Source of the DNA: Phycisphaerae bacterium
GTDB lineage: Bacteria; Planctomycetota; Phycisphaerae; Sedimentisphaerales; Anaerobacaceae
Reading direction: 5' to 3'
Assembly: GCA_012744475.1 (NCBI GenBank)
Contig: JAAYBV010000010.1
Location: 1-47,190, forward strand
Length of the DNA stretch: 47,190 bases
Below are positions 3,026 to 47,190 of the stretch, piece by piece (positions within the stretch are counted from its first letter, which is position 1; every line of letters starts with the position of its first letter). The notes below the pieces were generated by a model, which was given only the letters and a program-made list of their open reading frames with translations, was not told the origin of the DNA and ran no database searches. The position numbers were made by a program, and so were the translations under genes.

Positions 3026-4198
3026 CTATTGCAGGGCGACGTCACGGTAGATCCCAGCAAGCCGTATCGCTTGCTTTACCGCATCATATTCCTGCTCCAC
3101 GCGTTGGCGGATGCTCGTGGTGATCTCGTTCCATGCGTCAGGGTTCTCCGCCAACCAGAGGATACGTTCGGCCACGCCGCCCACGTCCTGCTCGTCGGCC
3201 AACAGATACCCACGGTCTGATCCGAAGACCTCGGGGATGTCGCAGTGCCTTGTGCTGACCACGGGCATGCCGGAAGCGGCCATTTCGATCATACCGACCG
3301 GCGCGCCTCCCTCGCAGTCGCCGTTGGAGGTTGTGAGGCTGGGAGATACAAAGATGTGATGTTTGTACGCTTCCTCCAGCAGCCGGCGGTGAGGCTGGAA
3401 CCCGAGGAGTCTGACGCTCGAGGTCAAGTTGTGCTTTTGGATCCCCTGCATGATCCGGGCTTTCTCTTGCACCCCCTCTGCGGTCGACCCACTGTCTCCG
3501 ATGATTGTGACCTCAAGCGGAACGTGATCCCGGATCCGGCCCAGAGCCTCCAACGCAAGCGGAATCCCCTTCTTCTCGCGGAACGAAGCGGCGATGAGCA
3601 CGCGAAGCGGCTCGTCGTCACGGCGGCGACGCGGCTGGAACGGGATTGTATCGATTCGAATGCCGAGGTGGTGGACCGTGACTTTCTCTTGCGGGCAGCC
3701 GAGTTGTACGACCAGCTTCGCCAGGTGCGGACCCTCGCAGAGTACACGATCGACATGGCGGAACAGAGCGTGATACCGTGCCCTCCATCTTGGGTCTTCG
3801 CAGGGCAGCCGATTCGCGTCGACGCCGTAGAAGGTAACGACATGCTTGAGCCCGGCTCGACGTACTGCGTCTTTGTAGCTCCAGCCGATGTAGCCGAAGT
3901 GCGAGTGTACTACCGAGGCGCGGTGTCTTCTGGCGACATCGACGAGATGGGCACTGTGCCGACGGAAACGCGTTCGTAACGTCAATAGTCCTTGCAGGAC
4001 GATCAGGGCACGACGGGAAGCGCTCTGATCCAGCCAACAATGGATGTGGGGCACCTCGAATGCATCGAGATTCGCGGTTGACCGACAGACAACGTGGCTC
4101 TCCACCTCCGCGGGCAGATACTTCACCTGGGTATAGAGCCAGTTCTCGGTCAGATGGACCCAGGTGTGGACGTTGTGAATAACAACCTGCTTGTGCAT
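3026..4198 (-). CDS. GT4-family glycosyltransferase
   Basis: A 390-residue GT-B fold enzyme that should transfer a sugar from a nucleotide-sugar donor during surface-polysaccharide assembly in the cytoplasm. The N-terminal half has 'HSHFGYIGW' and 'VVTFYGVDAN'. The C-terminal half has the GT4 donor-site features 'LIAASFREKKGIPLALEAL' and the E-x7-E motif in 'EGGAPVGMIEMAASGMPVVST' around residues 295-305. It resembles WcaL/AmsK-type exopolysaccharide transferases. ATG 4198 is preferred over GTG 4219 because AAGGG sits 6 bases before it. It follows the aminotransferase at 4312-5502 on the same strand after a 113-base gap, so the two are probably co-transcribed. Sugar and acceptor are unknown. 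Confidence 0.88.
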   Translation of the reverse strand: MHKQVVIHNVHTWVHLTENWLYTQVKYLPAEVESHVVCRSTANLDAFEVPHIHCWLDQSASRRALIVLQGLLTLRTRFRRHSAHLVDVARRHRASVVHSHFGYIGWSYKDAVRRAGLKHVVTFYGVDANRLPCEDPRWRARYHALFRHVDRVLCEGPHLAKLVVQLGCPQEKVTVHHLGIRIDTIPFQPRRRRDDEPLRVLIAASFREKKGIPLALEALGRIRDHVPLEVTIIGDSGSTAEGVQEKARIMQGIQKHNLTSSVRLLGFQPHRRLLEEAYKHHIFVSPSLTTSNGDCEGGAPVGMIEMAASGMPVVSTRHCDIPEVFGSDRGYLLADEQDVGGVAERILWLAENPDAWNEITTSIRQRVEQEYDAVKQAIRLAGIYRDVALQ

Positions 4199-4311
4199 GG
4201 TCTGCCCTTCAACATGCACGGCGCGAAATCCGATCTCGTGGAGGACGCATGGAGCAGCCGCAGGCTGCGCGGCGCGCCGGTGCGATCCACCGAATCCCTC
4301 CGTCGGGCGCG

Positions 4312-5502
4312 CTACGCATGGAGTACTCCCTCCACAGCGCGAATGACGTTGTCAACGTCACCCTCTTTCAGCTTGGCCGAAAGGGGCAGACTGACGGTCT
4401 GCCGACCGATCCGCATGGCCTGCGGGTAGTCCTCCGGTCGCCAGCCGAATCGCTCCTGATAGAACGGGTGTTCGGGCAGGCTCAAATAGTGCACGCCGAC
4501 CCCGATGTTTCGAGCCGTCATGGCCTGCAGAAAGGCATCCCGATCGATCCCGCAGCGGGCCTGATCGACAAGTATCGTATACAAGTGGCGAGCATGGCGG
4601 GTTTCAGGTTCGATCGGCGCCGGCACAGTCAGCGGCAGGTCTGAAAACGCTTTCGTGTAGCGATCCCAGATCGCCTGGCGGCGCGACGCGTACGGCTCTA
4701 TCCTGCGCAGCTGATGAACGCCGATCGCCGCCTGCAGATCCATCATGTTGTACTTGAAGCCGCAGTCCACGACATGGTAGTGCTTGTAGCCCTCGTCGCC
4801 AAATCGCCGCCACGCATCCTGCGTCATGCCATGCAGAGCCAGTCTCTTGATCCGGGCGGCACCCTCCTGATCGTTTGTGATCACCATTCCCCCCTCGCCG
4901 GTGACGATGTTCTTGGTTGCATAGAAGCTGAAGCACCCGAAGTCGCCGAAGGTGCCGGCATGCTGCCCTCGGAACTCCGTCTCGATGGCATGGGCGCAGT
5001 CCTCAATCACCTTCAAACCGTGATGGCGGGCGATGTCCATGATGGTGTCCATTGGACAGGGTCGCCCGGCAAAATGTACGGGTACGATCGCGCGGGTTCT
5101 TTCGGTGATCTTGTGCGCGACCTGCTCGGGATCGAGGTTCATCGTAACGGAGTCGATATCTGCCAGGACTGGTTTCAGTCCGGCATGGATGATCGCATTC
5201 ACCGTGGCGCAGAACGTCATCGCGGTCGTGATGACTTCGTCACCCGGCTGAAGTCCCGCCGCCAGCATGCTCAGGTGCAGGGCCGCCGTGCAGGAGTTGA
5301 CCGCAATGGCGCACCGGGCCCCTTTGTAGCGTTTGAAGTCTTCCTCGAACTGAGCGACCTTGGGTCCGGTTCCCAGCCAACCGCTTCGCAAGCACGCGAC
5401 GACCTCCTGGATTTCCGTCTCTTCGATGGCGGGCGAGCCGTAGACAAGGAATCCCCCGTTCATAGAGGTCGCAGGAAACTCGGGCGTCTTCTTGTCCTTC
5501 AT
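4312..5502 (-). CDS. DegT/DnrJ/EryC1/StrS aminotransferase (nucleotide-sugar aminotransferase)
   Basis: A 396-residue PLP enzyme of the sugar aminotransferase family, which aminates keto-sugar nucleotides using glutamate or glutamine. Visible family features are 'SGWLGTGPKVAQFEEDF', 'AVNSCTAALHLSMLAAGL', 'PGDEVITTAMTFCATVNAI', 'VIEDCAHAIE' and the PLP-binding 'FYATKNIVTGEGGM', with the Schiff-base lysine at residue 197. The length is normal for the family. It resembles ArnB/PseC-type enzymes making 4-amino sugars, but the substrate cannot be fixed. The adjacent glycosyltransferase and two acetyltransferases upstream make a small pathway for an N-acylated amino sugar in a surface glycan plausible. 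Confidence 0.9.
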   Translation of the reverse strand: MKDKKTPEFPATSMNGGFLVYGSPAIEETEIQEVVACLRSGWLGTGPKVAQFEEDFKRYKGARCAIAVNSCTAALHLSMLAAGLQPGDEVITTAMTFCATVNAIIHAGLKPVLADIDSVTMNLDPEQVAHKITERTRAIVPVHFAGRPCPMDTIMDIARHHGLKVIEDCAHAIETEFRGQHAGTFGDFGCFSFYATKNIVTGEGGMVITNDQEGAARIKRLALHGMTQDAWRRFGDEGYKHYHVVDCGFKYNMMDLQAAIGVHQLRRIEPYASRRQAIWDRYTKAFSDLPLTVPAPIEPETRHARHLYTILVDQARCGIDRDAFLQAMTARNIGVGVHYLSLPEHPFYQERFGWRPEDYPQAMRIGRQTVSLPLSAKLKEGDVDNVIRAVEGVLHA

Positions 5503-37386: not shown

Positions 37387-38142
37387 ATGGAAACCACGGC
37401 GAAGTATCGGCCCAACATCCAGATCGTCTCGGACGTCGAGGATCTGGCGTCCCGGACGGTCAATCTGTTTGTTTCGTGTGCGCGCGAGGCGCTGGAGTCG
37501 AGGGGCGCGTTCAACGTGGCTCTTTCCGGCGGCCAGACACCCCGACGGGCCTTCGAGAAACTGGCGGCCAGTCCTGCGGCACAGGCGTTGCTCTGGCAGC
37601 ACATTCACGTGTTCTGGGTGGATGAGCGATACGTCCCTGTGGATTCGCCGCACAGCAATTATCGGTTGGCCGCCGACGCGTTTCTGAGGAAGGTGCCGAT
37701 CCCGCCGGACAACATTCACAGGATTCCAACCGAGTACGAGGATATCTCCACGGCTGCACGCTCGTACGAGACGATTCTCCGCAGTGTGTTTGCGCTCGAA
37801 GAGGGCCGCATCCCGGAATTCGACCTGATCGTTCTCGGCATGGGCGCCGACGGACATACGGCGTCCCTGCTGCCGAATTCCTTCGCTCCGTTCGACACGG
37901 ACGACCTCGCGTGCGCTGTCTACGTCATGGACGGCCGGCTCAATCGAATTACCCTGACCCATCCGGTCCTGCGCGCCGCCAACCGCCTGGTTGTCCTCGT
38001 GTCGGGAGCGGAGAAGGCCGAGACGCTCAGGGAGGTCCTGAACGGCGAGCCCGATGAGGTCCGTTACCCGATCCACATTCTCTGGCCGGTGCTGGACAAG
38101 GTGATCTGGTTTGTGGACCGTGATGCGGCGGGCGCCATCTGA
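37387..38142 (+). CDS. pgl: 6-phosphogluconolactonase
   Basis: This 251-residue enzyme hydrolyses 6-phosphogluconolactone in the oxidative pentose phosphate pathway. Family motifs are 'FNVALSGGQTPRRAFEKLA', 'IHVFWVDERYVPVDSPHSNY' and 'FDLIVLGMGADGHTASLLP', with a C-terminal 'ITLTHPVLRAANRLVVLVSG'. ATG 37387 has GGAGGTGA just upstream; ATG 37375 is an alternative. It stands alone on the plus strand between the efflux genes and the converging LysM gene. Confidence 0.95.
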   Translation: METTAKYRPNIQIVSDVEDLASRTVNLFVSCAREALESRGAFNVALSGGQTPRRAFEKLAASPAAQALLWQHIHVFWVDERYVPVDSPHSNYRLAADAFLRKVPIPPDNIHRIPTEYEDISTAARSYETILRSVFALEEGRIPEFDLIVLGMGADGHTASLLPNSFAPFDTDDLACAVYVMDGRLNRITLTHPVLRAANRLVVLVSGAEKAETLREVLNGEPDEVRYPIHILWPVLDKVIWFVDRDAAGAI

Positions 38143-38173
38143 CGGAACGGGGCCGGCGCCGCCAGGCGCTGAT

Positions 38174-38683
38174 TCACTCGGGAATAATCAGCTTGGTTCC
38201 GGGGCGGATCTTGTTGGCGTCCCTGATGGTTTGCTCGTTTGCGGCCAGGATCTTTTGCCATCGGCTGGCGGTGCCGTAGTATTGCTGCGATATCGAGGAG
38301 AGAGTCTCGTCCTTCTGGACGATGTGGAACCGGGTGGTGGTGATTTTCTGTTCCCTTTCGTGGACCGTCAGATCAGGTTGCGGGACGCGCGTCTGAGTCG
38401 GCGGGACGTTGACGGATGGCTCCGGACGAACGGTCTCGACGAGTCCGGTGACGGGCGAGGTCTCCGCGACCTGCGTCGGTCTTTCCGGAGCCGCCGATGC
38501 CGCCGACCGGCTCGGTTCGGAGATGAGGGGCTCCGTCTGAGGCTGGCTCTCCTGCGAAGTGGGGGCCGAAGGACTGACCATCCGCGCCTGTGTAGTCAGG
38601 GTCGGGCGTGTCACCACCCAGAGCAGGACCACGCCCGCCAGGACCACGCCGCAGATCATCCCTATTTTGAAATCTCTGTCCAC
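38174..38683 (-). CDS. LysM-domain membrane protein
   Basis: This 169-residue protein has an N-terminal membrane helix ('IGMICGVVLAGVVLLWVV', residues 7-24), a Pro/Ser/Thr-rich linker and a C-terminal LysM domain at about 120-168 ('HIVQKDETLSSISQQYYGTASRWQKIL', 'IRPGTKLIIPE'; these are two separate stretches). LysM binds peptidoglycan, so the protein would link the inner membrane to the wall. It lies just downstream of secDF on the same strand. A partner enzyme is not evident. Confidence 0.88.
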   Translation of the reverse strand: MDRDFKIGMICGVVLAGVVLLWVVTRPTLTTQARMVSPSAPTSQESQPQTEPLISEPSRSAASAAPERPTQVAETSPVTGLVETVRPEPSVNVPPTQTRVPQPDLTVHEREQKITTTRFHIVQKDETLSSISQQYYGTASRWQKILAANEQTIRDANKIRPGTKLIIPE

Positions 38684-38784
38684 TGTACAGACCGGGCTGC
38701 AAAACTGTGCTCATGTCCACGAAACGCAAGCACCCGGGCGGCGGGGCGTGGTTTGGCCCCACCGCCGTCGGTACGATTGACAGC

Positions 38785-41700
38785 CTATTTTGCCTGTTGC
38801 TTTTCCGCGCCAATCAGCAGCAGCGGGGCCGCCACGGCGATCGACGAATACGTTCCGACGATCAGGCCGACCAGGATGACGTAGTTGAAGCCCCGCAGGC
38901 CGGAGCCGCCGAAGATGTACATCACAAACACGACAAACAGCGTCGTCACGCCGGTAATGACCGTTCGAGAAAGGGTCTCGTTGATACTGTTGTTGATCGT
39001 CTGAGGCGTGAGCTGGGCTTTGTGCCGATTTTCGCGGATCCGGTCGAAGATCACGATGGTGTCGTTCAGCGAGTAGCCCAGCAGGGTCAGGATGGCCGCG
39101 ATCAGCGTGCCGCTGATGCGGAAATCACCGACCAGCAAGGCCGACCCGATAGCCGTCTTGGCCAGGAACGCGGAGACCGCGACAGCGCCGACCGCGATGG
39201 AGACGTCGTGGAACAGGCACGCGATGGCCGCCAATCCGAACCGCAGACTGCCGAACCGCAACCAGATGTAGCCGACGATTGCCGCCAGCGACAGGACGAT
39301 GGAAATCAAGGACCGCGTCTTGGCCTCCGAGCCGACGAACGGATCGATCTGAGTGACGCGAGGAAGTGTCGTTTCCCTCTGGGTGGCCAGCAGAACGCGG
39401 TTTTTCTCGTTGTTGACGAACCGTTCCCACTCCTGTTCGCTAAGCGTTCGCAGTCCGGCTTCGGGCTCGACGCTCACGAATGTGAAGGCGTTGACCGGCT
39501 GGTTCGGGTCGGTGTTCTTGAGTCCGGAACCGTACACAGCGTATGGATACCAGGCCAGATTCTGTGTGTCCAGTCGGAAGCGAAGCTCCTGAATGCGCTG
39601 ACGGATCTCTGCCAGCGTCGCCGGGGTCTGGAGCGTTGTCTCCAGGCGGATGCCGCCGACGTAGTCCGCCAGTTCCGGATAGGTGTCGACGACTTCCTCG
39701 GTGATCCTCTCAGCGGAGGCGATCGCGGGATGCAGGTTCTGCTGAATCTCCAACTGACCCTGGAAGGCCTGTCGGATGGCATCGGTGACGACCTCTTCGA
39801 CTTCCGGCTCGGCGACTGTCGCGTTGGGGAACGCCTTGGTCAGGACGTCCTGGACCATGGCCGGATTGACCCGGCTGGTGGAGACGACGTACGACTGGGC
39901 TCCGTCGGGCGCCAGCTCGAACATGCCCATCCGCCGGCCGAGCTCGGATTCCGCTTTGCGGATCTCGGAGGTCGCCGCATCGACCGCCGGGCGGCTGCCG
40001 CTGAATGTCACCACCGTTTGCAGCTTGTTGATCGCGGTGGTGGTGATCTCATACTGGCTGTAGATCTTCTCTCCGCTGGGACTCTCGCCGATCGGTTCGC
40101 CGACACTGTAGATCGTGGCCGCCTGGAGACCGGGGTTGTTCAACTGCACGCCGATCTCCTGGATGCGTTTCTCGACGTTCGCACGCGTGAGGGATACGCC
40201 TTCTTTGAGATCCATCTGCACGCTCGTACCACCGGTGAACTCGATGTCGTACTTTGACTGGCCGCGGACGAAGAACAGCGTCAGGCTGCCGACCACCAGA
40301 AGCGCCGAAACCGTGATGAATATCTTCCTCATGCCCATCCAGTTGATGTTGGGCACGCTGATGAGACGCAGCATGACCAGACGCTCTTTGACGATTCGCT
40401 TGGAGACCAGCAGATCGAGGATGACGCGCGTCACGAAGATCGCGGTGAACATGCTCGATGCGATGCCGAGCATCAGCACGATGGCGAAGCCTTTGATGTC
40501 CTCGGAGGCCACATAGTAAAGGATGGCCGCCGTAAGGATCGTTGTCAGGTTTGAGTCGAAGATCGCGGAGAACGCCCGTGCGTAGCCGTTGCGAATCGCC
40601 GTGGTCAGGCCGACCCCCTTGGCCTGCTCCTCGCGGATGCGCTCGAAGATCAGCACGTTGGCGTCCACGCTCATGCCGATGGTCAGGATCAAACCAGCGA
40701 TGCCGGGAAGGGTGAACGTCGCACGCAGCCCGGCCATGATCGCCAGTGTGAACAGGACATTCAGCAACAACGCCACGTCGGCGATCGAGCCGCCGACGGC
40801 GTAGTAGACGATCATGAAGCAGATCACCACCACCAGACCGATGAGGCCCGAGCGGATACCCTTCTGGAGGTTCTCGGCGCCGACGGACGGGCCGATGACG
40901 CGTTCGGAGATCGGCTGCTCAATCAGCCGTGCCGGCAGAGAACCGGCGTTGAGCTTGTTGACCATGTCCGTGATCTGCGTCATGGTGAAGCTGCCGGTGA
41001 TGATGCCCTGGCTGCCGATCGGGCTGTCGGGATTGATCTCGGGCGCGGAGATGGCAATGCCGTCGAGCAGGATACAGAGGGGCCGTCCGGGGTTCTCTCG
41101 CGTGACATTGTAGAACAGAGCGCCCCCTTTGTCGTCCAGGCGAAATCCGATGGCCCTTCGGCCCATCTGGTCCGACGACGGGAACGACTTCTCCAGCTTC
41201 CAGCCGCGTCCGCCGGTCGCGCGCAGGATGGCCTCGTTGGGTCGGTTGCTGGCGAGGACGTAGCTTTTGTCGCCGAACTGGCCGAAGACGGCGTTCCGGG
41301 CGCCGAACTGCGCGGGGTCCTCGATCTCGCACCAGACGTACTGGCTGTCGGAGGCCGACTTGGGACCTTTCTCGCTCAGTTCCTGGGTGTAGCGTTCGAT
41401 CTCCGCCTCGCTCAGCTCGGTGCGGCCCCGGGTCGGCAGGATGCGCCATTCGAGGATGCCGGCGCCTTTGAGCATACGTTGAAGGTCCTTGGGGTCATCG
41501 AGCTGGCCGCGATAGGGGCGGTACTCGTCATAGGTGGTCACGAGGTTGTCGAGAGCGGCGGCACGATCGGGGAACATGGCCTTGAGCTGCCCGATCCTCT
41601 TGACCCGGTCCGACAATCTCTGATCCATTTCCAGGACGTAGGTGACCTGATCGATGGTCAGATTCAGCTGATCGAGCTTGCGTCTGGCGGCGTCGTATCG

Positions 41701-42453
41701 ATCGTTCAGGCCCCCCTCGGCGGTGAGCTGATTCAGCACGTCCACCAGTTCCTTGTACGCCGTGACATACTCGGTCAGCGGCGCGACCTGCTCCTCGGAA
41801 CCGGCAAAATCCTTGAGTGTGCTCGCCAGCTCGCCTGCGGCCAGCCTGGTCCAGTCGCCTCGGTTGGCCTCAACGCGGTCCACCGCTACGCCCGCGTCAC
41901 TGAGGGTCTTCTTGAGACCGTCGAGCTTCTGATAAAGGGCGTCCCGCTCTTCCTGGGCCTGCCGGCGGGCGTCATACGTCGAGACCAACGTATCGATGAT
42001 GGCTGCGCGATTCGGATCGCCCTGCGCAAAGCGGGCCAGGGTCTCCGTGCGTTCGGCTGCCGGCTCCTGGAGCGCGCGCATGATGGTCGCCGGGTTGGTG
42101 TTCCTGGCGAGAAGATCGTTCAAGGCGGCCTCGTACGCATGGCGGAACTGCTGCGTCGCCTTGCTGGCCAAAGGCATCTGGATCTCGAAGCGCGTGTTGC
42201 CCAGAGGCCGCCAGACGAGGTTCTGGATGTTGGCCGGATCGATGCGCCGGCGCAGCACCGCGATCATCCGCTGGGCGAGGTCCGTCTCCTCACTGGCGGT
42301 CAGGCCCTCCGTGTTGATCGCATAGATCAGGCTGGTTCCACCGGCCAGATCGATGCCGGGCTTGAGCTTCTTGTCGGGCGGGTACAGGCCGATCACCGCC
42401 AGCGCCACCAGAATGAGGATCAGGACAATCTTCGGTACCAGATTCTTGTTCAT
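38785..42453 (-). CDS. secDF: Protein translocase SecDF, single-chain fusion with enlarged periplasmic domains
   Basis: This 1222-residue fusion of SecD and SecF uses the proton gradient to pull proteins through SecYEG. The SecD half has TM1 (8-24), 'GIDLAGGTSLIYAI' and a TM bundle from about 538 to 690 with 'GMSVDANVLIFERIREE'. The SecF half starts near 700 ('WMGMRKIFITVSALLVVG', 'DIEFTGGTSVQM') and ends with TMs from about 1045, including 'YSLNDTIVIFDRIREN'. Two regions are unusually large: residues about 90-330 of SecD, mainly charged helix, and a roughly 300-residue SecF external domain. AGGAAA precedes ATG. yajC lies 61 bases upstream, and Tgt further upstream completes the usual tgt-yajC-secDF order. 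Confidence 0.95.
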   Translation of the reverse strand: MNKNLVPKIVLILILVALAVIGLYPPDKKLKPGIDLAGGTSLIYAINTEGLTASEETDLAQRMIAVLRRRIDPANIQNLVWRPLGNTRFEIQMPLASKATQQFRHAYEAALNDLLARNTNPATIMRALQEPAAERTETLARFAQGDPNRAAIIDTLVSTYDARRQAQEERDALYQKLDGLKKTLSDAGVAVDRVEANRGDWTRLAAGELASTLKDFAGSEEQVAPLTEYVTAYKELVDVLNQLTAEGGLNDRYDAARRKLDQLNLTIDQVTYVLEMDQRLSDRVKRIGQLKAMFPDRAAALDNLVTTYDEYRPYRGQLDDPKDLQRMLKGAGILEWRILPTRGRTELSEAEIERYTQELSEKGPKSASDSQYVWCEIEDPAQFGARNAVFGQFGDKSYVLASNRPNEAILRATGGRGWKLEKSFPSSDQMGRRAIGFRLDDKGGALFYNVTRENPGRPLCILLDGIAISAPEINPDSPIGSQGIITGSFTMTQITDMVNKLNAGSLPARLIEQPISERVIGPSVGAENLQKGIRSGLIGLVVVICFMIVYYAVGGSIADVALLLNVLFTLAIMAGLRATFTLPGIAGLILTIGMSVDANVLIFERIREEQAKGVGLTTAIRNGYARAFSAIFDSNLTTILTAAILYYVASEDIKGFAIVLMLGIASSMFTAIFVTRVILDLLVSKRIVKERLVMLRLISVPNINWMGMRKIFITVSALLVVGSLTLFFVRGQSKYDIEFTGGTSVQMDLKEGVSLTRANVEKRIQEIGVQLNNPGLQAATIYSVGEPIGESPSGEKIYSQYEITTTAINKLQTVVTFSGSRPAVDAATSEIRKAESELGRRMGMFELAPDGAQSYVVSTSRVNPAMVQDVLTKAFPNATVAEPEVEEVVTDAIRQAFQGQLEIQQNLHPAIASAERITEEVVDTYPELADYVGGIRLETTLQTPATLAEIRQRIQELRFRLDTQNLAWYPYAVYGSGLKNTDPNQPVNAFTFVSVEPEAGLRTLSEQEWERFVNNEKNRVLLATQRETTLPRVTQIDPFVGSEAKTRSLISIVLSLAAIVGYIWLRFGSLRFGLAAIACLFHDVSIAVGAVAVSAFLAKTAIGSALLVGDFRISGTLIAAILTLLGYSLNDTIVIFDRIRENRHKAQLTPQTINNSINETLSRTVITGVTTLFVVFVMYIFGGSGLRGFNYVILVGLIVGTYSSIAVAAPLLLIGAEKQQAK

Positions 42454-42514
42454 AGCGTTTTCCTGTTAGGTTGTTTGCTGAGTCAGTCTCTCTTCGACCA
42501 TCCGCCAGAGGCGC

Positions 42515-42940
42515 TTAATCTTTCCCCTCCTGGGAGAGATTCTTGCCGATCGCGGAGGTGCTGACTCGTATCTTGGTGTTGTTCGATTCGTCGATCTTGA
42601 GCACGACCTCGTCGCCTTTGACCTCCACGACCGTTCCGAAGATCCCCCCGATGGTTCGGACCCGGTCATTCTTGCTGAGCGACTGCACCATCTGCCTGTG
42701 CTTTTGCTGCTGCTTGCGAGGCCCTCGCATCAGGAACAGGTACATGATCACGAAGATGAAGATCAGAGGCAGATACGAGATCAGCGGCGAAACCTGCTTC
42801 GTCGGGGCCGGCGCTGCGGCATCTCCGGCGGGGTCCGGCACGACGGCGGTGCCCTCGTTGCCGCCGGTCACGGGCTCCGAACTGATTCGCGACGGCGCTT
42901 GATTGCCGTCTGCCTGCGCTATGATCCACACGTTTGCCAT
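42515..42940 (-). CDS. yajC: Preprotein translocase subunit YajC
   Basis: This 141-residue protein has a Pro/Ala-rich external N-terminus, one membrane helix ('YLPLIFIFVIMYLFLM', about 57-73) and the cytoplasmic YajC signature 'RGPRKQQQKHRQMVQSL', 'VRTIGGIFGTVVEV'. YajC works with SecDF. The N-terminal extension of about 50 residues is longer than in E. coli. AAGGA lies 7 bases before ATG, and a promoter at 42979-43007 serves it and secDF. Confidence 0.95.
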   Translation of the reverse strand: MANVWIIAQADGNQAPSRISSEPVTGGNEGTAVVPDPAGDAAAPAPTKQVSPLISYLPLIFIFVIMYLFLMRGPRKQQQKHRQMVQSLSKNDRVRTIGGIFGTVVEVKGDEVVLKIDESNNTKIRVSTSAIGKNLSQEGKD

Positions 42941-42978
42941 GATGAATTCCTTTCTAAGGCCCTGGGTATATTCGCGAT

Positions 42979-43007
42979 AGCGTATACAGTGGGGACAGAA
43001 TTGTCAA
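42979..43007 (-). promoter_or_regulatory. Promoter of yajC-secDF
   Basis: On the minus strand TTGACA (43002-43007) and TACGCT (42979-42984) are 17 bases apart, identical hexamers and spacing to the promoter at 23810. Confidence 0.65.
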
Positions 43008-43052
43008 ATTCAAATGGGATTCGCCGGTCGAAAACCCTTTGAGCGACGGTGC

Positions 43053-44195
43053 TTATCGGACGCCCTCGCCTCGGGCCAACTCCGCGGCGGCCCATCGCTC
43101 GAACCCGCCCTCCTCGATCTGCCGCCGAATCTCGGACATCAGTCGCTGGTAGAACCTCAGGTTGTGCAGGGACAGGAGGATGGGACCGAGCATCTCGCCG
43201 CAGTTGAAGAAGTGCCGGATCGCTCCGCGTGTGAAATGCCGACACGCGTAGCAGTCGCAGTCTGCTTCGATCGGTTCGCCCGAATCGATATGGACACTGT
43301 TGCGGAACCGCAGGGCGCCCTGACGGGTGAAGGCGAAGGCGTTGCGTCCGTTGCGAGTCGGCAGGACGCAGTCGAACATGTCCACACCGGCCCGTACCGC
43401 CGCGATGATGTCTGCGGGCATCCCGACGCCCATCAGGTAGCGGGGGTGGTCGGCCGGCAGCAGGGCGGCGGTGTGCTCGACGGTGCGGACCATGTGCTCG
43501 TGGCCCTCTCCGACGCTGAGGCCGCCAATGGCATATCCGTCAAAACCGGTACGAACGATTTCCTCGGCACAGCGGCTGCGAAGCGCAAGATCGATTCCCC
43601 CCTGAACGATGCCGAAGAGCAACTGCCCGTCGCGCGCGTGGGCCTGCTTGCAGCGCCGGGCCCAGGCGATGGTCCGGTCTACGGCCTTGCGGACGTGCTC
43701 GGGCTGGGCGGGGAAAGGAGTGCATTCGTCGAAGCACATGATGACGTCGGCGCCGAGCCGGTTCTGGATGTCGGTGGCGGTCTCGGCATTCAGATGGACG
43801 CGGGCGCCGTCGACGTGACTGGCGAACTCGACGCCGTCGTCGTCGATTCGGGTCAGCTCGCCGAGAGAAAAGACCTGGTAGCCTCCACTGTCGGTCAGTA
43901 TCGGACGATTCCAGGCCATAAAGTGATGGAGACCTCCGAGCCTCTCGACGACCTCCACGCCCGGGCGCAGCATGAGGTGGTAGGTGTTGGCCAGGATGAT
44001 CTCTGTGCCGGTGGCCTCAATCTGGTCGGGCGTGACGCCTTTGATGGTTCCGGCGGTGCCGACGGGCATGAACGCCGGGGTCTGGACGGGCCCATGGGCC
44101 GTGTGCAAGACGCCCCGGCGGGCGCCGCAGCAAGAGTCGGTTGCGATGGTTTCAAAATGCCGCATATGGAATTCGTCACGCTCCGGCACAGCCAT
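43053..44195 (-). CDS. tgt: tRNA-guanine transglycosylase
   Basis: This enzyme of 380 residues exchanges guanine-34 for preQ1 in tRNAs with GUN anticodons. The active-site Asp is in 'ILTDSGGYQVFSL', the second Asp in 'VDMFDCVLPTRNGRNAFAF', and the zinc site in 'CDCYACRHFTRGAIRHFF'. 'TPAFMPVGTAGTIKGVTP' is the family N-terminus. A shorter start at 44165 would align better with E. coli Tgt, but neither start has a strong ribosome site. tRNA-Asp in this window carries GTC, a Tgt substrate type. Confidence 0.95.
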   Translation of the reverse strand: MAVPERDEFHMRHFETIATDSCCGARRGVLHTAHGPVQTPAFMPVGTAGTIKGVTPDQIEATGTEIILANTYHLMLRPGVEVVERLGGLHHFMAWNRPILTDSGGYQVFSLGELTRIDDDGVEFASHVDGARVHLNAETATDIQNRLGADVIMCFDECTPFPAQPEHVRKAVDRTIAWARRCKQAHARDGQLLFGIVQGGIDLALRSRCAEEIVRTGFDGYAIGGLSVGEGHEHMVRTVEHTAALLPADHPRYLMGVGMPADIIAAVRAGVDMFDCVLPTRNGRNAFAFTRQGALRFRNSVHIDSGEPIEADCDCYACRHFTRGAIRHFFNCGEMLGPILLSLHNLRFYQRLMSEIRRQIEEGGFERWAAAELARGEGVR

Positions 44196-44241
44196 TGGCC
44201 TGCGGTCCCATACGACCGATAAGACCTGCAGGACCAGCGCT

Positions 44242-45504
44242 TCAATAGAGGCTCGCGATGGTCGAGCCGGGGTAATAGTGTTCCAGTATTTGTTCGGCGG
44301 TTCTGCCCAGCCGGGCCATTCCTTCGGCGCCGCACTGGCACATGCCGACGCCGTGGCCCCAACCCCGTCCGGAGAGGAAGGCCCAGCCGTTGCCCCAGGA
44401 AACGATATGACAGATCGTGCTCTGGATCTTGCGCCCGCTCGGATCGAGCGCCAGGCGGAGGTCTTCGCCGCGAAGGGTGTCAGTCTGGCCCGTCGAGCCG
44501 GTCAGGCGAATCCGGGTCAGCCGGGCGAACTGGCCGTAGTCGCTCTTCTCGATGGCGACGATACCGGTGATCTCCCCGAGCTTCTCGAGGCTCGGATATC
44601 GGGCAACCAGGCGATTCGTGACGGTGGTCTTGTCGAACTGGGCCATCGGCCAGAAGAACAGCCCCATCTTGGCGACCTCTTTGCAGTAGGGGCAGGGCAC
44701 CGCTTTGAGCGGTCCGAACGGCTCGCCGAAGACACGTTCGCAGTCTTCGGTGTGCCCGCCGCAGATCGAGCTGTAATAGGCCGGAAACAGATCAGTCCGG
44801 CCGGTGCGAGGGTCTTTGGCAACCAGCACTCTGCCGTAGGTGGCGTTCACGGCGTTCCAGACCTGCGCCGATTCGGCCCCGATGCCGCCGTACACCTGGC
44901 TGGCCTGTGTGCTGCTGACGTCCCAGTCCCGATTTGCCCCGAAGCGTTTCTTCGTGTAGAGGCAGTAGGTCCTGGCGGCTATGGTCTGGGCCCGCAGGGC
45001 CTGCGGCTCCCAGTAGCTCGGCATCTCGGCGCCGATGACACCCGCCAGATAAGGTTCCAGGGGCACGAAGTTGACCGCGCGGAAGGTTCGCCCGTCTTCA
45101 TTGAGGATCAGCTTGAGTCGGCCGCGGTAGTTCTGCCGGTTCAGCGTGAACACGTGGGGCCGCTCGGTGCTGATGACCAGCCTGTCACCCGGTTGGACCG
45201 TTGTTCCCAGCACGATTCGTCCGTCGGAGAGCGTCACCTTGACGGGACCTTCCAGCGAGGAGGCGACAGGCTCGCCGCCCGGGACCACGGCGAAGAAGTC
45301 GTGATGGTCAACGTGCATGACCGACGGCGACGCCACCGTGCATTCTGTGGCGCTGGACAGCAGCAGAACGCGGACCCAGAACTGGGATTCGACGTCCATC
45401 TGCGGCGTCGGGCGAACGATCTCGCGCCGGCCGCACCCGGCCAGAAGGACCATCGAGCTGACGGCAACCGCCAGCGGGACCGTGCCACGTCTGTTGCGTG
45501 CCAC
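44242..45504 (-). CDS. SpoIID/LytB-domain lipoprotein
   Basis: This lipoprotein of about 420 residues has a short signal with lipobox ('VSSMVLLAGC') and a SpoIID domain: 'VPLEPYLAGVIGAEMP', 'ALRAQTIAARTYCLY', 'YSSICGGHTEDCERVFG' and 'GRGWGHGVGMCQCGAEGMA'. SpoIID is a peptidoglycan lytic transglycosylase in Bacillus; in non-sporulating planctomycetes it is probably a wall or amidase-regulating enzyme. GTG 45504 is preferred because GGGGAGG lies 9 bases upstream and it gives a compact signal; an ATG at 45567 extends it by 21 odd residues. Confidence 0.87.
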   Translation of the reverse strand: MARNRRGTVPLAVAVSSMVLLAGCGRREIVRPTPQMDVESQFWVRVLLLSSATECTVASPSVMHVDHHDFFAVVPGGEPVASSLEGPVKVTLSDGRIVLGTTVQPGDRLVISTERPHVFTLNRQNYRGRLKLILNEDGRTFRAVNFVPLEPYLAGVIGAEMPSYWEPQALRAQTIAARTYCLYTKKRFGANRDWDVSSTQASQVYGGIGAESAQVWNAVNATYGRVLVAKDPRTGRTDLFPAYYSSICGGHTEDCERVFGEPFGPLKAVPCPYCKEVAKMGLFFWPMAQFDKTTVTNRLVARYPSLEKLGEITGIVAIEKSDYGQFARLTRIRLTGSTGQTDTLRGEDLRLALDPSGRKIQSTICHIVSWGNGWAFLSGRGWGHGVGMCQCGAEGMARLGRTAEQILEHYYPGSTIASLY

Positions 45505-45585
45505 GGCACGGAACCTCCCCGTAGAGGCCGGGCTCGATAATGGCTGGTTACGCGACGGCACAGGCATCCGGCACAGGCGGGTCGA

Positions 45586-46896
45586 CTACTCAAGATTCCG
45601 TAGCGACAGGCCAAGACCCGACAGGGCTTTCTTGATCTCGTTCAGACTGGTGACGCCGAAGTTCTTGCACCCCAGAAGCTCCGCATCGGTCGTGCGCGTC
45701 AGTTCGCCGACGCTGTGGATGTTGAGTTTCTGGAGACACTTGCGGGCCCGCACCGACAGTTGGAGGTCGTCCACGGGCTTGTTCATCAGCCCCTGGTCCT
45801 CCGGGCTGCTCGGGCCGGCGAGGTCTCCGGCGGCAAGGCTCTTGTCCTCCAGGGCCATGCCCAGGCGAAGCCCCTTGCTGTCCAGGATGGCCTTGATCTC
45901 GCGAAGAGACGTTTCGCCGAAGTTCTTGTAGGACAGCAACTCGGCCTCGGTGATGTTGAGCAGGTCGCCCAGCGTGCGGATGTTCATCTTCCTCAGGCAG
46001 TTCCTGCTGCGGACGGAGAGTTCAAAGTCGGAAATGGGCGTCTCGAGAATCTGGTTCTTGCGGCTTCTCTTCTTCTCCCGCTCCTCGTCATAGTACATCG
46101 TCTTGGAGCTGTCGACGTCCTTCTTGAAGAGCAGGGCGCGCGGGTGATTGGGGTGGCACTCCAGGACCTTGTCGACACAGTGGCAGGCCTTTTCGAACTC
46201 CCCGCGGTCTTCATAGAGCACCGCCAGGTTCAGCAGGGCGCTGACATAGGCCGGTGCGCAGGCGATGGCCTGCTTATAGTAGTCGATGGCCGTCGACTCG
46301 TAGCCGGACAGATCGTGACGATACGCCAGGTGAAACAGCGCCCGGTGATGGTCTGGGGCCAGCTCCAGAACCGTCTTGTAGTTCTGCACGGCCTTGTCGT
46401 ATTCGCCCAGGGTTTCCTGGAGGCGACCGAGCTGGTAGTGGTACTCGGCGCTGACGTTCTCGAAGTTCTTGCAGGCGTCCAGCTCTCGGGCGGCCGCGTC
46501 CAGGTCGCGGCCTTCTCGATAGGTCGCCGCCTTTTCCAGATTGACGTTCAGAGGTTCCGCCCCGAAATCGATCGCGCGTTGCAGGCAATCAACTGCCTCG
46601 CCGTACCTCTTGCGTCGGCGGAGCGCATAGGCCAGGTAGGTGAACTTCTCCAGGCAGTCCTTGGCCTTATGGAGCTTCTCCACGGCCTCGCTGTGCTTTC
46701 CGAGCATGAACAGGCCGATCCCCACTGCCAGGTTCGCTTCTGCCGACGTCTTGCCGCGTTCGGCCTCGACCTGTTGGGCGAATTTGGCGCGGTTGGACTC
46801 ATTGGAGTTGACGGCACGCGACAACGCGTGCAACTCCTTCATCGACGGCAGTGGCTGGGCAAAAAGGTTGATCTCCAGTCCGGCGGTCTGCTCCAT
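45586..46896 (-). CDS. TPR protein with two RNA-polymerase alpha-CTD-like domains
   Basis: This 436-residue protein has TPR repeats over about residues 50-265 ('AVGIGLFMLGKHSEAVEKLHKA', 'YHYQLGRLQETLGEYDKAVQNY'; separate stretches) followed by a charged linker and two helix-hairpin-helix alpha-CTD modules. Module 1, about 285-347, reads 'FELSVRSRNCLRKMNIRTLG' and 'KNFGETSLREIKAIL'. Module 2, about 371-432, reads 'LQLSVRARKCLQKLNIHSVG' and 'KNFGVTSLNEIKKAL'. In E. coli alpha, Arg265 and Asn268 contact DNA: Arg is kept in both modules, while Asn is kept only in module 1. It is not the polymerase subunit itself, as no N-terminal domain is present. ATG 46896 has GGGAG upstream. It likely binds DNA or polymerase partners. 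Confidence 0.87.
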   Translation of the reverse strand: MEQTAGLEINLFAQPLPSMKELHALSRAVNSNESNRAKFAQQVEAERGKTSAEANLAVGIGLFMLGKHSEAVEKLHKAKDCLEKFTYLAYALRRRKRYGEAVDCLQRAIDFGAEPLNVNLEKAATYREGRDLDAAARELDACKNFENVSAEYHYQLGRLQETLGEYDKAVQNYKTVLELAPDHHRALFHLAYRHDLSGYESTAIDYYKQAIACAPAYVSALLNLAVLYEDRGEFEKACHCVDKVLECHPNHPRALLFKKDVDSSKTMYYDEEREKKRSRKNQILETPISDFELSVRSRNCLRKMNIRTLGDLLNITEAELLSYKNFGETSLREIKAILDSKGLRLGMALEDKSLAAGDLAGPSSPEDQGLMNKPVDDLQLSVRARKCLQKLNIHSVGELTRTTDAELLGCKNFGVTSLNEIKKALSGLGLSLRNLE

Positions 46897-46964
46897 GGAT
46901 ATCGTCTCCCAAAAGGATCTATTCACGTCGGTCCTATGTCGGCCCTTGAAACGGACAAACCGGT

Positions 46965-46992
46965 ATTATAGGCAGGCTGCCGCCCTTTGCAA
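46965..46992 (-). promoter_or_regulatory. Promoter of the TPR/alpha-CTD gene
   Basis: On the minus strand TTGCAA (46987-46992) and a perfect TATAAT (46965-46970) are 16 bases apart. Confidence 0.65.
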
Positions 46993-47016
46993 CAGCTTTT
47001 TGCACGGGCCGCGGCA

Positions 47017-47190
47017 CCGTGTCTGTGCAGATTTCGCGGCAAGGCCCGTTTTCCACCACGGAGCGCCCTGTGTGGCAGCGGCAAACGGAGCAAGGCGGAG
47101 TTTGCCGATGGCTTCGACGGCATGCGTATCACCATCGGCAAGCCTGCGCTTGCCGCTGCCACACGCCTGCCAGGATATTTTCACAGACAC
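47017..47190 (-). repeat. 176-bp structured repeat, copy 2 (cut 2 bases short by the window end)
   Basis: This matches the repeat at 7451-7626 in inverted orientation. The 53 bases at 47017-47069 match 7574-7626 reversed (48/53), and 47165-47190 match 7453-7478 reversed (26/26). The 95-bp core at 47070-47164 instead matches 7479-7573 in the same orientation, differing at two adjacent bases. The element lies upstream of the TPR/alpha-CTD gene. Confidence 0.92.

Follow-up and report, generated by a model that had tools for sequence, protein, structure and literature searches.

The window that we analysed, a stretch of 47,190 nucleotides from a Phycisphaerae bacterium, encodes a protein in which a tetratricopeptide repeat (TPR) solenoid is followed by two copies of the C-terminal domain (CTD) of the RNA polymerase alpha subunit. 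The best explanation overall for this TPR-CTD protein, to which we assign a probability of roughly 55%, is a bivalent DNA binder of the UP-element type that is free-standing, associated with transcription and part of the core of the Planctomycetota. This reading draws on the computed architecture and fold, the separate ancestry of the modules, a near-universal presence in the phylum, the constraint on contact residues, synteny in many lineages and a promoter that is conserved in close relatives.

Results

Gene and domain layout

The TPR-CTD gene lies at 45586..46896 on the minus strand and encodes 436 residues from an ATG at 46896, the start that is common to close relatives; an in-frame GTG at 46926 would give an ORF of 446 residues (45586-46926, minus strand). 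In a Pfam scan, PF03118 (RNA_pol_A_CTD) matched two stretches with 148.8 bits in all against a cut-off of 23.8, and several TPR models were also above their cut-offs in the N-terminal part, which bears out the preliminary description of a TPR protein carrying two alpha-CTD modules. Scored singly, CTD1 reached 80.8 bits and CTD2 76.7, close to the 85.8 bits of the CTD in the same genome's rpoA, so that a chance match is excluded. Chance or a wrong frame is further ruled out by conservation of the ORF across Planctomycetota, and a fusion through misassembly by the same layout in many assemblies. The TPR solenoid occupies 46087..46842 (minus strand, about residues 19-270), and CTD1 lies at 45880..46071 and CTD2 at 45619..45801 on the same strand. 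Between them is a linker (45787..45846, minus strand, about residues 351-370), which is probably flexible as judged from a pLDDT below 50 at residues 355-364 of the AlphaFold2 model.

The same genome carries a complete rpoA, a 338-aa ORF on another contig that scores 360 bits with TIGR02027 (cut-off 227.8); hence, the polymerase keeps a CTD of its own. The TPR-CTD protein has no alpha N-terminal domain (NTD), and the rpoA models match its CTD part only and all below cut-off (139.2 bits for TIGR02027). It shares with the rpoA CTD the Pfam family and the predicted fold, but differs in placing two modules, which form separate groups in a tree, on a TPR scaffold.

Distribution

A strong match (best E <= 1e-45) was present in 389 of 393 Planctomycetota genomes with a completeness of at least 90%, and the gene is thus near-universal within this sample. 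Two of the remaining four genomes (G142 and G083) hold fragments at contig ends, while the other two (G204 and G410) yielded no orthologue, just an rpoA and plain TPR matches. Within the window's order, a set of 61 genomes that includes that of the window yielded 60 with an orthologue, a few of the orthologues incomplete; the genome without one, G033, is a 68% complete assembly. A separate scan of contigs with patterns from the TPR-CTD protein gave 81 matches, 80 of which were kept as named loci; a planctomycete group is named in the titles of 78 of these and 'bacterium' alone in two (L087 and L100).

Exactly three PF03118 matches were found in 97 of 118 genomes, more than three in 17 and two in 4. 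The four two-match genomes (G125, G181, G200 and G215) all belong to family f46 and encode a TPR protein with one CTD (L194-L197), which scores like CTD1. Extra alpha-CTD matches bring the count to six in G075, to five each in G148, G214, G246, G261 and G326, and to four in 11 others. Locus L199 has a 91-aa alpha-CTD frame running to the end of its stretch, and in one relative a 546-aa frame (G023:C61:9910-10143), part of which shares 63% identity with CTD1, is possibly a second CTD protein.

Searches of plasmids matched 73 records, and no match covered more than 80% of the query; where the 30 matches listed carry annotated features, these are RNA polymerase alpha subunits. With the CTD part as query, 17 phage records matched, of which four are annotated as alpha subunits and 13 are without annotation. 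Neither search holds anything in favour of a phage or plasmid origin.

Structure models

An AlphaFold2 model of the whole protein, built from 61 aligned sequences, had a mean pLDDT of 86.1 and a pTM of 0.60; given this pTM, we do not rely on how the model positions the CTDs against the TPRs. For this alignment (A1), 60 of the 80 named loci were added to the window sequence, with L094, L097, L099, L102 and L112 left out (the L099 stretch carries an in-frame stop), and a further alignment (A3) comprised the window and 54 loci, with L073, which had been out of frame, left out. The TPR part adopts the TPR superhelical fold (1w3b_A, Z 21.2, rmsd 4.9, 236 aligned). Because TPR matches filled the whole-model listings of Foldseek and VIA-align, the C-terminal part was folded alone, at a lower confidence (pLDDT 77.4, pTM 0.41).

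In the comparison with alpha-CTD structures that the preliminary description had proposed, the C-terminal model matches solved alpha-CTDs. All 50 Foldseek matches listed for it are polymerase alpha chains or alpha-CTDs, including 1lb2_E (TMt 0.92, rmsd 1.0, 65 columns) and 9zum, a Caulobacter alpha-CTD on AT-rich DNA (rmsd 0.8, 50-52% identity). VIA-align placed CTD2 on 8y5t_A2 (Z 13.1, rmsd 1.2, 67 aligned residues), and CTD1 was covered by 1 of the 50 matches listed (6gh5_A, Z 8.6, rmsd 2.8, 73 aligned). In these models, the C-terminal modules have the predicted alpha-CTD fold, a compact helical domain with two helix-hairpin-helix motifs.

Ancestry and constraint

We built a tree of 108 CTDs from every fourth CTD pair (32 pairs) and 44 rpoA rows on 71 columns, which are few. 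In it, the rpoA, CTD1 and CTD2 sequences each form a group of their own (98/95, 97/96 and 98/92). Rooted at the midpoint, the tree sets CTD1 and CTD2 together opposite rpoA; this choice of root, and the fact that E. coli is the sole row that is known to lie outside the Planctomycetota, prevent identification of the donor rpoA.

Sequence identity was compared in the 13 genomes for which both genes were fetched (78 pairs, mutually dependent). Mean pairwise identity was 70% for CTD1, 59% for the rpoA CTD, 60% for the rpoA NTD and 51% for CTD2, and fell to 44% for TPR residues 149-270 and 23% for TPR residues 11-148. CTD1 exceeded the rpoA CTD in 71 of the 78 pairs and CTD2 did so in 20. We regard the layout, the way in which the modules group and the constraint on them as firm, with CTD1 conserved more strongly than the CTD of the polymerase. 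This constraint contradicts the idea that the protein is a relic, either decayed or a product of annotation alone, that has no function of its own. The one-CTD versions in four of 118 genomes and the two of 393 assemblies without an orthologue do indicate that parts can be lost, but a gene that is nearly universal in the phylum sample, with one module more constrained than its counterpart in the polymerase, makes a relic scarcely credible.

DNA-contact residues

Residues were counted in 133 CTD1, 128 CTD2 and 43 Planctomycetota rpoA rows, with identical ORFs counted once, four unclassed ORFs (three distinct) left out and one-CTD proteins contributing no CTD2 row; E. coli letters and numbering were checked against NC_000913. 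In the numbering of the 436-aa protein, R296 and N299 of CTD1 and R383 and K386 of CTD2 correspond to E. coli R265 and N268. We take eight positions to be the DNA contacts established by work on E. coli, among them Arg265, Asn268, Cys269, Gly296, Ser299 and Glu302. In the window, CTD1 has R296, N299, C300, N325, G327, T329, S330 and E333 at these positions, as in the phylum's rpoA, while CTD2 keeps R383, N412, G414, T416, S417 and E420 and has K386 in place of Asn268.

The same pattern holds in general. In CTD1, the six named residues are each present in 133 of 133 rows and T298 is present in 130. In CTD2, Arg265 occurs in 128 of 128 rows, C269 in 89, G296 in 124, S299 in 124 and E302 in 127; position 268 fails to keep Asn, with Lys in 102 and Arg in 24 of the 128. 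The preliminary description, which had placed the key Arg in both modules and the key Asn only in the first, thus extends beyond the window. It had also considered that the surface residues might match a different helix-hairpin-helix family. The conserved set, however, includes the alpha-CTD DNA-contact positions, and such a family is ruled out by profile, fold and residues, all of which point to the alpha-CTD.

Conservation at the eight contact positions was higher than at the other positions in CTD1 (0.997 versus 0.790, 133 rows), in CTD2 (0.919 versus 0.645, 128 rows) and in the rpoA CTD (0.907 versus 0.695). Both modules, unlike rpoA, are additionally basic at positions 267 and 272, and the mean net charge of positions 262-273 is +3.8 for CTD1 and +3.6 for CTD2 but 0.0 for the 43 rows of Planctomycetota rpoA. 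A CTD that has to bind unaided by the polymerase would be expected to carry such extra basic residues beside the key Arg. The region of the second hairpin (positions 291-304) is less basic, with mean net charges of +0.2 for CTD1, +0.4 for CTD2 and +2.6 for rpoA, and this would count against a DNA binder. Lys298 of E. coli is replaced by Thr in both modules; as Thr is also found in 43 of 43 Planctomycetota rpoA rows, this change is not special to the TPR-CTD protein. On balance, the TPR-CTD protein is likely to bind DNA.

These residues also bear on an alternative in which the modules contact proteins, such as sigma region 4 or activators, and have little DNA binding of their own, the protein acting as an adaptor that bridges clients of the TPRs to the transcription machinery or soaks up activators that bind the alpha-CTD. 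At positions 259 and 261, which we take to be those of the 261-determinant, CTD1 keeps Asp259 and Glu261 (129 of 133 rows each), and the conserved residues specific to CTD1 (F260, M273, E297 and K310) fall outside the DNA-contact set and are not accounted for by DNA contact. Yet conservation at the DNA-contact positions exceeds that at the other positions in both modules, basic residues have been gained beside Arg265, and CTD2 varies at position 261 (N in 39, Q in 36 and E in 34 of 128 rows) while retaining most of the DNA set. We therefore regard such an adaptor as a doubtful explanation, though one of some weight.

Promoter and A-tract

A predicted promoter, TTGCAA-N16-TATAAT, precedes the gene at 46965..46992 on the minus strand, with an A-tract at about -45 to -41 (46997..47001, minus strand). 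The position of the A-tract is presumably that of the proximal UP-element subsite, which is the natural target of the alpha-CTD. This promoter is the best sigma70-type consensus site in 38000-47190 (10 of 12 positions); four sites scoring at least 9 were found there versus 1.5 expected. All 16 closer loci inspected, which were picked by hand, have TTGCAA (14) or TTGCAG (2) with TATAAT at a spacing of 16-17 bases, and this site lies 81-150 bases ahead of the match. Over 94 distinct upstream regions, a promoter with one mismatch allowed was present in 52, against 1.0 when the mononucleotides were shuffled; the columns from -46 to -41 are rich in A, with no conservation in columns further upstream.

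The promoter is a feature of close relatives. Among orthologues of at least 50% identity, 35 of the 54 upstream regions carry the exact TTGCAA-N16/17-TATAAT site, 34 of them with four or more A in the six positions from -46 to -41; below 50% identity, the exact site was found in 6 of 88 regions, with the A-tract in five of the six. Such an A-tract accompanies 46 of 146 other TTGCAA sites, drawn from 150 of 359 matches, and as the rows are related the Fisher value for this contrast overstates the difference.

In the window's genome, three sites of the promoter kind have TTGCAA and six have TTGACA; a stricter A-tract pattern occurs there once, at the TPR-CTD gene. Over 61 genomes, this stricter pattern matched 68 sites in 38 genomes, 23 at the TPR-CTD gene and 45 elsewhere, and its reversed control gave zero matches in the same genomes. 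As 45 of the 68 sites are elsewhere, this type of promoter is not private to the TPR-CTD gene, and it may serve the polymerase's CTD alone, the TPR-CTD protein or both. An Rfam scan of nine loci behind other TTGCAA promoters found no rRNA genes and one tRNA only. A second recurrent type of A-tract promoter (like GAAAAAAATGCTTGCAAAA) occurs in several relatives (for example, at G017:C92:17305, G021:C232:3805 and G028:C120:12785).

It is also conceivable that the protein is a nucleoid component, or acts in another DNA process, as a bivalent A-tract binder that bridges DNA without a direct role at promoters. Two linked modules that resemble DNA-binding domains, joined by a linker that is modelled at low confidence and is probably flexible, would suit such a role, as would the near-universal presence of the gene. 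Both the membership of the modules in a domain family of a polymerase subunit and the gene's own conserved UP-type promoter in close relatives point to promoters instead, and we consider the nucleoid role distinctly unlikely.

Gene neighbourhood

In the window, the TPR-CTD gene is followed on the same (minus) strand by a gene for a SpoIID/LytB-domain protein (44242..45567), tgt (tRNA-guanine transglycosylase, 43053..44195), yajC (42515..42940) and secDF (38785..42453), the last with SecD and SecF in one 1222-aa ORF. At least 5 kb of downstream sequence was available in 56 of the 80 named loci; tgt was matched in 44 of these and secDF in 40. In 43 of the 56, tgt lies downstream in the same orientation, and L078 has its tgt match upstream and on the opposite strand; most Phycisphaeraceae-like loci in this comparison do not have the tgt synteny. 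Where no SpoIID match intervenes, the tgt match starts 20-333 bases past the TPR-CTD match. A further 20 loci were hand-picked on complete or long contigs from various families. In 11 of them tgt follows in the same orientation; the other nine lack this arrangement, six of them having a SpoIID-type match and three none of the four neighbours. The tgt-yajC-secDF run is common in bacteria; what the planctomycetes have apparently added is the TPR-CTD gene in front of it.

No Pfam model matched about residues 43-415 of the SecDF ORF, before the P1 head, at E <= 0.001. Elsewhere in the window (3026-5502, minus strand), genes for a glycosyltransferase and a DegT-type aminotransferase adjoin, as in surface-sugar clusters.

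Discussion

A protein of the TPR-(alpha-CTD)2 layout is apparently undescribed, as full-text searches of one literature library listed no paper describing one. Two models other than those of the polymerase also match the CTD part, namely those of the BREX kinase PglW (NF033442) and of the short PRK07758 family (NF005841). The scores, 36.2 of 990 bits for NF033442 (best stretch 271-356) and 44.6 of 115 bits for NF005841, are far below what membership of either family requires, and we know of no layout of TPRs plus two CTDs for PglW or PRK07758. Streptomyces AfsR, a transcription regulator, reportedly contacts the polymerase's CTD. In PMC10936776, where AfsR is studied together with the alpha-CTD, it has a SARP domain, an NOD and a TPR domain; the likeness lies in the TPR domain, whereas in the TPR-CTD protein the alpha-CTD is built into the protein itself. 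A study of essential genes in Planctopirus limnophila counts 108 essential phylum-specific proteins of unknown function, and its main text contains none of the words tetratricopeptide, TPR and rpoA (PMC10632474); tetratricopeptide and TPR are likewise absent from the main text of PMC12283558.

We propose that an alpha-CTD became detached from an rpoA, probably earlier than the last common ancestor of the Planctomycetota, and that after duplication it came to form the C-terminal end of a TPR protein. CTD1, aided by CTD2, would grip the minor grooves of UP-element-type A-tracts untied from the polymerase, while the TPR solenoid would dock a partner such as the polymerase, a sigma factor or a regulator. 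At UP-element promoters, the protein may replace, or compete with, the polymerase's own CTDs, and such a role at promoters is plausible. The preliminary description had suggested that the protein could recruit or divert transcription factors, or bridge DNA to other proteins, and these roles are still inferences. The A-tract promoter upstream of its own gene raises the possibility, which we hold more tentatively, that the TPR-CTD protein regulates itself and the tgt-yajC-secDF genes behind it. A link to protein export is at most hinted at by the operon. A bolder version, in which the detached alpha-CTDs form a phylum-wide general transcription factor that acts in trans as a 'third and fourth CTD' reading UP elements genome-wide, and in which the TPR scaffold and the secDF/yajC operon connect the machinery of protein export with transcription or the nucleoid, appears unlikely.

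The alpha-CTD is the polymerase's own promoter-reading module, and we know of no counterpart in model bacteria of a factor of this kind. In the Planctomycetota, two further copies of the alpha-CTD reside in a separate protein, one of them more constrained than that of the polymerase. In this phylum, the reading of UP elements may therefore be shared with, or put under, a separate factor.
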